Part shown: piece by piece, positions 55,856 through 60,087 of the stretch
Layout: each line of letters begins with the position of its first letter
Position numbering within the stretch: position 1 is the first letter of the stretch
Assembly: GCA_009777955.1 (NCBI GenBank)
Contig: WRKW01000003.1
Location: 1-64,000 of the forward strand
From: Alphaproteobacteria bacterium
GTDB taxonomy: Bacteria > Pseudomonadota > Alphaproteobacteria > Rs-D84
Direction of reading: 5' to 3'
DNA: 64,000 nucleotides
The notes under the pieces: model-generated
The model's input: only the letters and a program-made list of their open reading frames with translations
Database searches by the model: none
Told to the model about the DNA's origin: nothing
Position numbers and translations under genes: made by a program

Positions 55856-56269
55856 ATGAAAATAATTCTAAAAAATCTTGATGAAACCCGCGCGTGGGGA
55901 CGTGAATTTGCAAGAACATTGCAGATGCCCGTGGTGGTTGCGTTGCATGGTGATTTGGGCATGGGGAAAAGCGAGGTTGCACGCTCTATCATCCAGGAAC
56001 TTTGCGGTTCTGATACTGTTGTGCCCAGTCCTACGTTTACACTTGTTCAATCATACGATGCGCTGGGTTACAGAATTTCACACTTTGATTTGTATAGAAT
56101 ATCAGACCCGTCGGAATTGACCGAGATCGGTTTAGAACATGCCTGTGCAAATGATATCGTGCTTATAGAATGGCCGGAAATAGCTTCGCATATCCTGCCA
56201 CTTGATACTATTCATATTTATATCACAGAAGAAAATGGCGAAAGGGCGATAAAAATAAACAGGGTCTAA
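55856..56269 (+). CDS. tsaE: tRNA threonylcarbamoyladenosine biosynthesis protein TsaE
   Basis: A 137-residue P-loop ATPase for t6A37 synthesis with TsaB/TsaD. GDLGMGKSEVARSII (about 31-45), SPTFTLVQSY and HFDLYRISDPSELTEIGLE match the family, followed by LIEWPE. A promoter (TTGACT, 16 bp, GATAAT) precedes it. Converges on the ftsA-rpe gene with a 4-bp gap. Confidence 0.93.
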   Translation: MKIILKNLDETRAWGREFARTLQMPVVVALHGDLGMGKSEVARSIIQELCGSDTVVPSPTFTLVQSYDALGYRISHFDLYRISDPSELTEIGLEHACANDIVLIEWPEIASHILPLDTIHIYITEENGERAIKINRV

Positions 56270-56273
56270 GGGT

Positions 56274-58055
56274 TTAATTTTTACGCAGCAATGATTGAAC
56301 CGCAGCCGGAAAATCTGTTGCTTTTGCAAGATAGCTTCCCGATATCAAAAAATCCGCCCCCGCTGCCCAACATAATTTTGCCGTTTCTTTGTTAATCCCA
56401 CAGTCCACGGAAATTTTGAATTTCAAACCGTATTTTTTTCTTGTCGCGGCCAGGGCTTTTATATGCAAAAGTGCAGACGGCATAAATTCTTGTCCACTTG
56501 CGCCTGGTTGCGCCGACATTACCAACACTTCATCAATGTTGCGCAAGACTGGTTTTAATATGTCCAATGTTGCATCGGGACTGATCGCTATTCCGGATCT
56601 TTTTCCAGCTGCCTTTATGTCGGAAAGCGTTGCCCGTACCCCATAAGTTCCAGCCGATATTATAATGGTGTCCGCACCCGCTTCAGCTGCGCTGTTTGCC
56701 CAAGATCGTGGGTTCTCGGTCATAAGGTGGACGCTAAGATGTGCATCTGTCTTGCTTCGTATAAGTTTAAGTTCGTCTATGCCGCTTGTGATTCTATCTA
56801 CAAACAAACCGTCCATTATATCTATATGAATCATGGAAATATGTCCGGCGCGGAACTTTGCATAGGTCGCGTCATCGCGCATATCAAACGTAAGCGTGCT
56901 GGGCATAATTGGTAAAAAGGCCGGCTTTTTTTGTCGTTTAAAAAGTTTTGAAAGTGTTTTCAGAATCAGCTGGCCGATGCGCGCCCGGCGCGCCCGCCGT
57001 GCGGCAATAGCATCGAAATGTGGTTTTATTCGTCCCCATACATAAGCGGTGCAGGCCTGTGCTGCGGCAACCGCACCGATATTTTCTATCGGAATTCGGA
57101 ATTCGTTTTGCAAAGCCGTTTCAATTCCAGGAATGTTTGCGCCGCCGCCGTATACATATATTTTTACAGGTTGGTATTTTTCTATTGCGTCGCCCGCGGC
57201 AGTATGGACATTTTTTATTATATCATCAAAGACTGGCAGTGCCAGGTTGTTGACATCTGCGCGGGTAAATTCATGTTTAGCACTGGCGGGAGTAAACCGA
57301 TCCATTTCACCGGAAGAGAGTGATAAATTTTCCCGCTTTATTCGTTCCGCAGCAACCCATTGCAAGCATAGTCCCCCGGCAATTGCATCTGTAAGCATCG
57401 ATTGACCAGTCGGGATTTTTTCTATGAATACGGGACCCCTTGCGGTCCAGATGGATACAGTTGTCGCAGATGCGCCAAGGTCGACAAGCATTGATGATTC
57501 TTTCTTTGGCCGGGCAGAGTTCGCAATCAAAAAAGATGGATCGGAAAATTCCAGTCCCATCATGTGTGCTGTTCGTAAATGTTCCCGTACGTTTTTTATT
57601 CCATCCCGGCTTGCCGCTATGATGCCAAAAAGTGCGGATAATTGCCGACCATGCTGTCCGATCGGGGTTGCAAGATTTGCGAAATCTTCCAGATCATATC
57701 TTAATGGAATTATGTGCATCGGGAAAAATTCTGGTGCCAGCTCTTTCATATCCGATACCATAGTTATTATATCCTGACCCGTAATTTTGTGTTCTTTTCC
57801 CCAGTCAGCGGTTCTTTGTGCTATTTTTAATTCTGTGGGGCCAAAGTTACCGGTAATATATGCTGAGTCGAATCGAATGCCAAGCCGGGATTCCAATGCA
57901 TCCGTAACACGCTTTATCGCAAAAGCAGTATCCGGGGATTCAAAAGACTGGATATAAGATGCGGATATACGACCCGAAGACATGCGTACACCAATACCGG
58001 TCGCGTGCGATGTGCCGACATCAAGGCACAGAAAAGATGAATCTAGCAGGTTCAT
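56274..58055 (-). CDS. ftsA-rpe: FtsA-ribulose-phosphate 3-epimerase fusion
   Basis: A 593-residue fused protein. Residues 1-374 are FtsA, the actin-like membrane anchor of FtsZ: CLDVGTSHATGIGV (phosphate-1), MLVDLGASATTVSIW (phosphate-2), YVYGGGANIPGIE (adenosine), and the C-terminal amphipathic targeting helix GQLILKTLSKLFKRQKK (361-377). From residue 378 (nt 56924 leftward) follows a full Rpe TIM barrel: PSTL, HIDIMDG (410-416), VHLM (H443), VMSAQPGASGQEF and SVDCGI (D551), so metal and catalytic residues are kept. The frame is unbroken and the Rpe part lacks its own start. ftsQ overlaps by 4 bp upstream. Confidence 0.9.
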   Translation of the reverse strand: MNLLDSSFLCLDVGTSHATGIGVRMSSGRISASYIQSFESPDTAFAIKRVTDALESRLGIRFDSAYITGNFGPTELKIAQRTADWGKEHKITGQDIITMVSDMKELAPEFFPMHIIPLRYDLEDFANLATPIGQHGRQLSALFGIIAASRDGIKNVREHLRTAHMMGLEFSDPSFLIANSARPKKESSMLVDLGASATTVSIWTARGPVFIEKIPTGQSMLTDAIAGGLCLQWVAAERIKRENLSLSSGEMDRFTPASAKHEFTRADVNNLALPVFDDIIKNVHTAAGDAIEKYQPVKIYVYGGGANIPGIETALQNEFRIPIENIGAVAAAQACTAYVWGRIKPHFDAIAARRARRARIGQLILKTLSKLFKRQKKPAFLPIMPSTLTFDMRDDATYAKFRAGHISMIHIDIMDGLFVDRITSGIDELKLIRSKTDAHLSVHLMTENPRSWANSAAEAGADTIIISAGTYGVRATLSDIKAAGKRSGIAISPDATLDILKPVLRNIDEVLVMSAQPGASGQEFMPSALLHIKALAATRKKYGLKFKISVDCGINKETAKLCWAAGADFLISGSYLAKATDFPAAVQSLLRKN

Positions 58056-58768
58056 TTCATCCGGTTGATTTTAACCAGCGTCCTGTTTTCGTCCCGCATA
58101 TCCAACACGGATATTTCACGGTTCAGGATTTTGCTTTGTTTTTGTTGCGCCCCGACTTTTGCAATGGCTTTATCCCAATTGGTTTCTGGCAGCATAATCT
58201 TTACGCCGGAATTGGTATAAATGTTCCAACGCCTTCCTTCGACCCATTCGATGCGCGCCACTTCCTTTGACAGTGCGGTTTCCCTTTTTATCGTACCCGC
58301 GACCAGACCCACGCCACCCGGCAATTCGCCGGTAAAAACAAGCGTTCCTGCTGGCAACACATCCAAATAACGCGCGACAGTCCGACCATCATCAGACAAC
58401 GGGTAAAAATTCAATCCGTCGGTCCAGGCCGCCACGATATCTCTTTGCGCTACGCGCACCATGATTCGCCCGTTCGGAAGTCGTCGTATGGCCGCATTTT
58501 TTACATCGGGCAAAGCGGATATATTTGCCAGGGCGATTTTGATATTTACGGAATATGCAGAGCTTTTGGGGCGTATATTCAATGCATCTGCAATTTCTTG
58601 TATACCCGAATTTCCGCGTCCGCTGGATGTTCCGGGATATATTGAAATTCGTCCCGTTGGTGCAATATTGGATATACCCATCACGGCCATAGACATACGT
58701 ACTGTGAAGTAAAGCGCAACAATCATAGCCAGCGCGAATGTAAGCCAAAATATAAGATTTTTTCTCAT
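58052..58768 (-). CDS. ftsQ: Cell division protein FtsQ
   Basis: A 238-residue bitopic divisome protein with a short cytosolic start, one membrane helix (about 8-28), a POTRA-like region (IKIALANISALPDVKNAAIRRLPNGRIMVRVAQRDIVAAW, core PDVKNAAIRRLPNG) and FtsQ beta domain with FYPLSDDGRTV. Shorter than average. Overlaps ftsA-rpe by ATGA. ftsZ, murC and ddl are not adjacent. Confidence 0.88.
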   Translation of the reverse strand: MRKNLIFWLTFALAMIVALYFTVRMSMAVMGISNIAPTGRISIYPGTSSGRGNSGIQEIADALNIRPKSSAYSVNIKIALANISALPDVKNAAIRRLPNGRIMVRVAQRDIVAAWTDGLNFYPLSDDGRTVARYLDVLPAGTLVFTGELPGGVGLVAGTIKRETALSKEVARIEWVEGRRWNIYTNSGVKIMLPETNWDKAIAKVGAQQKQSKILNREISVLDMRDENRTLVKINRMK

Positions 58769-58810: not shown

Positions 58811-59695
58811 TTATACCAAAGCATTTACAATTTTTTCTATGTCAAATTTCTTTGCCGTAATGACATTGTTCTTTTCAATGGAAGATCTATCTGTAACCGA
58901 AAGAGAAAGCGTTTTGGATAATGCTTCTGCAATTCCAGTCGGAGAATTCGCATCTTTAAGCTTTATATTTGGCGCGATGCCGGAATTATCCGGCCATATA
59001 GTGGGTCGCCCCATTGCTGTCGCCGCCATCAAAAGTGACCGGTCGTGCCAGCAAAGCGACATCACCGCATATGATGATCGCATAATGGTTGCAAGATCTT
59101 CGTCCTGTCCAATGAAAGTAATTCTGTGATTTTGTCCTGCGCGGGATATTTGCCTTATGATCTTTCGTGCGCGCATTGATCCCGTGGAACCGTAAAGCGC
59201 GACCAGTAATTCATCAGAATTAATATGTGCCAAAGCCTTTAAAAGTGTATCCAGTCCAAGACCCAACGGACTTATTACAGTCACAAGCTTTTGATGCGGC
59301 GCAATGTTGAATTCCGACAAAAATCTTGATTGTAAAAGGCTGGCAACAGATTTTGGGTTAAATACAGAAAGGTCTATTCCGAATTCTGGCGGTACATCTT
59401 TGTGGTTCAGCCGCATACGCCGCGCAAGGTCTTTTCCCGACTGTTCAATTACAAGAATGCGTGGCTTTTCTGATTTTATAAGCTTTCTTAATTCACTTGT
59501 GGAAAATAAAAAAACTTTGTTAAACAGGCGGATGTGGCCAATCCGAACATGCCGCGTGCGCAGTTTATATGTCTGGGCATGTTTTGCGGGTGACGCGATA
59601 ATCACACGCATTCCCTTTTTTTGCATACTTACGGCAAGTGTGATAAGTCCGCGGGAAAGCTTTGGTGCTATAAAAAGGAAAGGTTGTGATTTCAT
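58811..59695 (-). CDS. Glycosyltransferase family 4-like protein
   Basis: A 294-residue Rossmann-type protein. PFLFIAPKLSRGLITLAVSM at the start (core FIAPKLSRGL) and C-terminal HRITFIGQDEDLATIMRSSYAVMSL (core FIGQDEDLATIMRSS) then GRPTIWPDNSGI fit GT-B enzymes; the E-x7-E motif is not clear. Possibly lipopolysaccharide or surface glycan synthesis. The start at 59695 follows the stop of the upstream lipoprotein by 2 nt; the frame to 59737 overlaps that gene. Confidence 0.65.
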   Translation of the reverse strand: MKSQPFLFIAPKLSRGLITLAVSMQKKGMRVIIASPAKHAQTYKLRTRHVRIGHIRLFNKVFLFSTSELRKLIKSEKPRILVIEQSGKDLARRMRLNHKDVPPEFGIDLSVFNPKSVASLLQSRFLSEFNIAPHQKLVTVISPLGLGLDTLLKALAHINSDELLVALYGSTGSMRARKIIRQISRAGQNHRITFIGQDEDLATIMRSSYAVMSLCWHDRSLLMAATAMGRPTIWPDNSGIAPNIKLKDANSPTGIAEALSKTLSLSVTDRSSIEKNNVITAKKFDIEKIVNALV

Positions 59696-59697
59696 GA

Positions 59698-60087
59698 TTA
59701 AGCCGCGCGCAACAGGTACCCCCGTCTGAACATGCATTTACGGTAAGAACCAATGGATCTTGATGCCGTGTTCGGCGGAACGGAAAGGAGCATTCTTTGT
59801 CCCGTATCCCTGTATTCGTTTGATTGGAACGTTACCCAAAGCCCGTCCCAATCCGGCATTTGAGATGCCTGATTGGGCATCAAAAGTTTTGCCGCACGGG
59901 ATCTGGGCTGATGTGCGGGTTTTGTTATGCCAAGGCAAACTTTATGATCACGCACAAACTGTTCCGTCGTTACCATTTCGTTTTCCCAGTTCAAAACCGT
60001 GGCGTTTTCAATAGAGCCGCCACGGGGTGACGAGCAACCGACAAGAACGCAAAGCGCGGCAAATATGACACAGGGATTTAGTTTCAT
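59698..60087 (-). CDS. Small lipoprotein of unknown function
   Basis: A 129-residue protein with a lipoprotein signal peptide (LNPCVIFAALCVLVGC, lipobox LVGC). The mature part has TVLNWENEMVTTEQFVRDHKVCLG and a C-terminal pair of Cys (YRKCMFRRGY), without a known domain. The ATG lies 6 nt after a TATAAT, so the mRNA would be leaderless. It is divergent from the pilus secretin genes and shares their promoter region. Confidence 0.7.
   Translation of the reverse strand: MKLNPCVIFAALCVLVGCSSPRGGSIENATVLNWENEMVTTEQFVRDHKVCLGITKPAHQPRSRAAKLLMPNQASQMPDWDGLWVTFQSNEYRDTGQRMLLSVPPNTASRSIGSYRKCMFRRGYLLRAA

Follow-up and report, generated by a model that had tools for sequence, protein, structure and literature searches.

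The window, a stretch of 64,000 nucleotides of an alphaproteobacterial contig, carries on its minus strand a single gene that joins ftsA to rpe and follows ftsQ directly (Table 1). The original prediction, made from the sequence alone, described here one unbroken frame of 593 codons with the FtsA nucleotide motifs, an amphipathic helix at the junction instead of the C terminus, and a complete Rpe barrel with its His and Asp residues. All of these elements were confirmed.

Table 1. Fusion gene, its parts and its neighbours in the window.
Feature	Coordinates	Strand	Basis or remark
ftsA-rpe fusion gene, 593 residues, stop codon included	56274..58055	-	ATG start, no internal stop
FtsA-like actin-fold half, residues 1-340	57036..58055	-	nucleotide-binding motifs, possible SHS2-like inserted domain
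Family-specific conserved motif EMDRFTPAS, residues 250-258	57282..57308	-	conservation profile; alignment with E. coli and sister FtsA
Amphipathic basic helix ILKTLSKLFKRQKK at the junction, residues 364-377	56925..56966	-	hydrophobic moment 0.71, charge +6
Flexible linker, residues about 371-380	56916..56945	-	block mean pLDDT 56, the least confident part of the model
Rpe half with complete TIM barrel and active site, residues 381-593	56277..56915	-	Pfam, PDB 2fli
ftsQ	58052..58768	-	Pfam FtsQ_DivIB_C 5.9e-10; 4-base overlap with the start of the fusion gene
tsaE, convergent downstream neighbour, context only	55856..56269	+	Pfam TsaE 1.7e-33

Searches against Pfam revealed a Ribul_P_3_epim domain at residues 383-576 (E-value of 2e-43, 148.6 bits against a cut-off of 21.1) and an FtsA domain at residues 189-323 (6.7e-9), the latter detected in all 66 fusion members. 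SHS2_FTSA matched weakly at residues 87-146 (7e-5, 23.5 bits against a cut-off of 25.4) and was seen in 5 of the 66. The nucleotide-binding residues of FtsA are all present, namely Asp12 and Gly14 of phosphate-1, Asp192, Gly194 and Thr198 of phosphate-2, and the adenosine motif GGG at residues 303-305. The Rpe half carries the catalytic residues Ser386, His410, Asp412, Met414, His443 and Asp551. Between them, the helix ILKTLSKLFKRQKK has a hydrophobic moment exceeding that of every 14-mer starting in residues 1-320, and the linker overlaps the end of this predicted amphipathic stretch.

The AlphaFold2 model, with 66 natural fusions as input, has a mean pLDDT of 92 and displays an actin-like half, a helix at residues 330-371, a weak stretch near residues 371-380 and a complete barrel; how the two halves are placed relative to each other is not fixed in this model (pTM of 0.63). 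Comparison of the model against the PDB by Foldseek yielded FtsA structures as all top 19 matches, from T. maritima, S. aureus, Vibrio, E. coli and Xenorhabdus, with TM-scores by target of 0.66-0.76; this match to whole FtsA also lends support to an SHS2-like insertion. Rpe structures rank after them, 2fli showing a TM-score by target of 0.92 and 37% identity. Against the NCBIfam models, both halves stay below the equivalog cut-offs, the FtsA half with 56.8 bits (TIGR01174, cut-off 175.85) and the Rpe half with 158 bits (TIGR01163, cut-off 212.6), and the Rpe half passes the subfamily model NF004076 (175.2 against 165). As both the FtsZ partner (see below) and an equivalog score are missing, we treat the FtsA half as a homologue of FtsA that has diverged, and not as an equivalog. 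The predicted bifunctional ftsA-rpe fusion is genuine.

A search of related genomes, proposed along with the original prediction, found the same fusion throughout the family to which the window belongs. The fusion profile matched in 175 of the 183 species-level genomes, across all 13 genera, and the fusion is present in 114 of the 115 high-quality ones, as well as in the single-contig genome G035. Among the matches listed, the family fusions are full length and free of internal stops, and no resplit fusion was seen among the 175 of 183 species, in 13 genera, that bear it. When the class was sampled evenly (337 genomes), only three genomes were found to carry the fusion, all three from the window's family, and it was not found in the 334 sampled Alphaproteobacteria genomes outside the family. 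Scanning of GTDB genome contigs yielded 75 fusion loci, all in metagenome-assembled genomes, labelled Alphaproteobacteria, Rickettsiales, proteobacterium, bacterium or Candidatus Enterousia. Where isolate names show a source, it is mostly an animal gut (ruminants, horse and others). We take the family to be CAG-239 of the GTDB order RF32, with several termite-gut members. In all 74 related loci long enough to show the position, the gene immediately upstream of the fusion is ftsQ. Upstream of ftsQ and on the same strand, the window encodes a 308-residue protein (58811-59737, minus strand) that has no NCBIfam match; its homologues lie near the fusion in only 10 of the 75 loci.

In the Rpe tree, the Rpe halves of the fusions form one clade with a support of 95/100, making a single origin the simplest reading of these sequences; the tree includes one wrongly framed outgroup row, G054, on a very long branch, and every bootstrap tree recovers the fusion group regardless. 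The sister families of the same order have ftsA and rpe as separate genes. In four of them the two are adjacent in an operon or overlapping, the overlap being 17 bases long in G036, 4 in G043 and a single base in both G037 and G040. In the sister family f4, a predicted protein of 589-593 residues lies between ftsA and rpe. In the sister families, FtsA terminates with an amphipathic helix (KVKKWIDDNF and KVKNWIKEHL are examples), and the junction helix of the fusions retains a high hydrophobic moment and a net positive charge in most members, being clearly lost only in genus g10. This correspondence indicates that the putative membrane-targeting helix at the C terminus of the ancestral FtsA is kept and has become internal. 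The original prediction had set a septal tether against a helix repurposed as a linker. The two roles are not exclusive, given a junction helix that is amphipathic and basic in most genera and lost in g10. Both halves show a dN/dS of about 0.03-0.15 in close pairs with unsaturated dS, pointing to strong purifying selection on FtsA and Rpe alike.

Alignment of the FtsA halves shows that the main nucleotide-contact positions are retained in at least 62 of the 66 members. Genus g4 lacks the aspartates of the phosphate motifs, and in genus g10 the adenosine GGG is altered in addition to the loss of the helix, suggesting that the role of FtsA may be loosening in parts of the family. The FtsA half is also less conserved than the Rpe half, with 41% against 61% identity to the window. 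The stretch EMDRFTPAS, which we take to correspond to subdomain 2B, the FtsZ docking site of ordinary FtsA, is among the most conserved of the FtsA half, reading MDRFTPAD in most members, and the 2B stretch is shortened in the window's family. Arg300, presumably the residue that FtsA uses for FtsZ docking, is replaced in 21 of 21 fusions. It is likewise replaced in family f4, which has FtsZ; its loss alone is therefore not diagnostic, and we rejected it as a signature of FtsZ loss. The FtsA role of tethering FtsZ to the membrane has no counterpart in the window's family, where FtsZ is absent.

No FtsZ was found in the window's family. None of the 36 family genomes in the set of relatives matches TIGR00065, whereas all other relatives searched have FtsZ. 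A closer profile, made of 18 FtsZ sequences from the sister families and the class and including one degenerate member, detected FtsZ in 18 of 18 sampled genomes of the order outside the window's family and gave no credible match in the 183 family genomes, among them the single-contig G035, which is 99% complete. The sole weak match in the family (G156, E-value of 0.047) was rejected, as it has three stops in frame. The whole genome of the window (1.019 Mb, no masked bases) was then searched. A profile search of its ORFs with all filters off gave a best FtsZ E-value of 0.28, and its six frames are devoid of the tubulin signature GGxTGxG. Across the class, 332 of 340 genomes at least 95% complete have FtsZ by TIGR00065, and five of the eight without it belong to the window's family. 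The other three, G410 and G499 of f112 and G413 of f116, have neither a TIGR00065 match nor a first-look candidate, which could reflect assembly gaps or stretches absent from the data. In the genomes sampled, FtsZ loss and the fusion have the same family-level distribution. The original prediction had the fusion tether Rpe to the division ring. The fusion and its internal helix stand, but with FtsZ absent from the whole family there is no Z-ring for such tethering.

The rest of the division machinery is largely in place. The window's genome keeps FtsW, an FtsI-like transpeptidase, FtsK, MreB, MreC, RodA and PBP2, together with the Mur enzymes, MraY/MurG and parts of Tol-Pal; E. coli queries for MinC, MinE and ZapA gave no match there. 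In the sister families, the FtsZ proteins mostly keep the C-terminal docking peptide, for example EIPAIFKK or DIPSFLKE. Two genomes depart from this pattern. G039, from family f5 of the same order, has a degenerate FtsZ (L055:2519-3745) that lacks the GGGTG(S/T)G signature and an obvious C-terminal docking peptide; this genome has no detectable FtsA beyond MreB-like matches and no Rpe, and is a possible intermediate stage of FtsZ loss. In G041, an FtsZ below the curated cut-off (L057:2533-4536) is also devoid of the usual docking peptide, and the genome has no Rpe match and only a weak FtsA.

The active-site residues Ser, His, Asp, His and Asp of the Rpe half are invariant in all 66 members. 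The Asn of the NPG loop is replaced throughout the Rpe halves of the family, and in these alignments only the window has VDCG where the others have VDGG. The linker region evolves fast, with a mean identity of 20% over residues 341-380. A separate Rpe made from an internal start is unlikely, as the only methionine nearby (residue 384) lies inside the first strand of the barrel and is present in only 37 of the 66 members. As to a separate rpe elsewhere, another check proposed at the outset, a search of the whole genome of the window found no second copy. Transketolase and RpiB were found in the same genome, so that Rpe is probably needed to link transketolase to ribose 5-phosphate. E. coli queries for transaldolase, RpiA and glucose-6-phosphate dehydrogenase gave no match in this genome, and E. 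coli Prs matched only a 241-residue ORF weakly (1.3e-4). The genome may therefore lack a normal PRPP synthase while retaining the non-oxidative pentose-phosphate link.

Elsewhere in the family, two fusion-bearing genomes have a second, stand-alone Rpe-like gene, G023 (L220:2980-3654) and G046 (L226:698-1369). Their sister is a copy from a different family of the order, and they carry DGC or DGQ instead of DGG. Some further family genomes also show a second match. An 874-residue ORF of G049 that resembled a second Rpe fusion was rejected as a spurious upstream extension of a normal rpe.

Based on these observations, we propose, as a leaning more than a firm conviction, a bifunctional protein whose FtsA half serves as a membrane scaffold for FtsZ-independent division and whose Rpe half is the epimerase of the cell. 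The fusion would go back, most likely, to a single event in which overlapping ftsA and rpe genes of the same operon lost the stop codon that separated them, in the ancestor of a family of gut Alphaproteobacteria that have reduced genomes and lost FtsZ as well. The FtsA half most likely still binds ATP, and the internal amphipathic helix would hold it on the inner membrane. Together with FtsQ, FtsW, FtsI, FtsK and perhaps MreB, it would provide a scaffold in the cytoplasm on which the septal wall is made in the absence of FtsZ. The Rpe half would be carried on the cytoplasmic side through the short flexible linker, acting as the sole ribulose-5-phosphate 3-epimerase and joining transketolase to ribose-5-phosphate isomerase B. 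Since Rpe enzymes are dimers or hexamers, the fused barrel could also cross-link FtsA protomers and add valency, partly replacing the multivalency of FtsZ filaments. Two reports (PMC5508204, PMC7613929) describe minirings formed by FtsA alone on lipid and curved double filaments formed by FtsA with FtsN, which by analogy makes an FtsZ-free FtsA scaffold physically plausible. For the fused protein we infer membrane and septal localisation, catalytic activity, cross-linking and functional replacement of FtsZ. The fullest form of the proposal, an FtsA-based divisome free of FtsZ in which the scaffold is FtsA joined to an oligomeric enzyme and septum formation is physically tied to pentose-phosphate flux, is put forward only tentatively.

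The main rival is a passive fusion of operon neighbours in a shrinking genome, after which the FtsA adaptor and the Rpe enzyme would have kept their old jobs, functionally uncoupled. Such an event is easy to envisage where ftsA and rpe are neighbours or overlap in four sister families, and the genomes of 1 Mb and the fast-evolving linker also fit. However, 175 of 183 species, from 13 genera, retain the fusion, and no split version was seen; this and an FtsZ loss distributed over the same family in the genomes sampled argue against mere accident, and we regard this explanation as possible yet doubtful. Second comes the reading that the FtsA half has given up its part in division and, dependent on ATP, anchors Rpe to the membrane or regulates it, while MreB with RodA and PBP2, and FtsW with FtsI, divide the cell alone, a mode of division proposed for Chlamydia. 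The retained nucleotide motifs, the low dN/dS and the constant adjacency of ftsQ to the fusion make this unlikely, even though the FtsA half is the less conserved one (41% against 61%) and lies under its equivalog cut-off, the window's genome has MreB, RodA and PBP2, and Chlamydia divides with MreB and neither FtsA nor FtsZ (PMC10591338).

A third possibility is that the family has a tubulin-like FtsZ, diverged beyond detection, that is still the partner of the fusion. The degenerate FtsZ of G039 shows that strong divergence of FtsZ does occur in this order. Even so, the profile that includes this degenerate member found nothing credible in the 183 genomes, nor did the search of the whole genome of the window with filters off, and the GGxTGxG signature is missing. 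With nothing recovered by the NCBIfam model, the close profile, the unfiltered search or the motif scan, a hidden FtsZ was rejected as a candidate and this explanation appears quite improbable. Although the window comes from a multi-contig assembly, an assembly or sequencing artefact deserves practically no credence, for 175 of the 183 species-level genomes, independent of one another and including the single-contig G035, share this open frame; this excludes the stop codon, frameshift or assembly error near the junction that the original prediction had considered.

FtsZ is near universal in bacteria, and most work on division without it concerns Chlamydia and Planctomycetes. The window belongs to a large family of uncultured bacteria, common in the gut, that lost FtsZ and kept FtsA and the septal wall enzymes; as its close relatives have FtsZ, the family offers a clean before-and-after comparison. 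The single fused protein can be expressed and tested, and it physically hard-wires an enzyme of central metabolism to a protein of cell division. No description of a covalent FtsA-enzyme fusion was found in the open-access literature, in agreement with the original remark that no such case was known to be described; an FtsA that is kept and fused to an enzyme without FtsZ appears to be undescribed. FtsZ-less bacteria are already known; we place the present case with FtsZ-independent division, as a variant whose domain architecture is new.

Compared with FtsA of E. coli, T. maritima and others, the fusion has the same fold, nucleotide motifs, amphipathic helix after the core and gene position after ftsQ. 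It differs in that its genome has no FtsZ partner, the helix is internal and not terminal, an enzyme domain is added at the C terminus, and MDRFTPAD occupies the 2B region; identity to solved FtsA proteins is about 16%. With Rpe it shares the complete TIM barrel and the invariant Ser, His, Asp, His and Asp, whereas the barrel is covalently joined to an actin-like protein, has lost its own N-terminal start and has the NPG Asn replaced. The lack of FtsZ is common to the window's family and to Chlamydia, Planctomycetes and Wolbachia supergroup J. In a review table of obligate intracellular bacteria, Chlamydia and Wolbachia supergroup J score 0% for ftsZ and likewise for ftsA, and the MreB/RodA/PBP2 wall machinery persists there without FtsZ (PMC10591338). 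Unlike these lineages, which have lost ftsA, the window's family keeps FtsA, fused to Rpe, along with FtsQ, FtsW, FtsI and FtsK. Links between metabolism and division or the cell cycle are likewise found in another alphaproteobacterium, Caulobacter, in which the metabolic enzymes KidO and GdhZ signal to division or the cell cycle. In the same organism CitA links central metabolism to the cell cycle, according to one report (PMC7083601). KidO, GdhZ and CitA are separate proteins, whereas in the fusion the division protein includes the enzyme.
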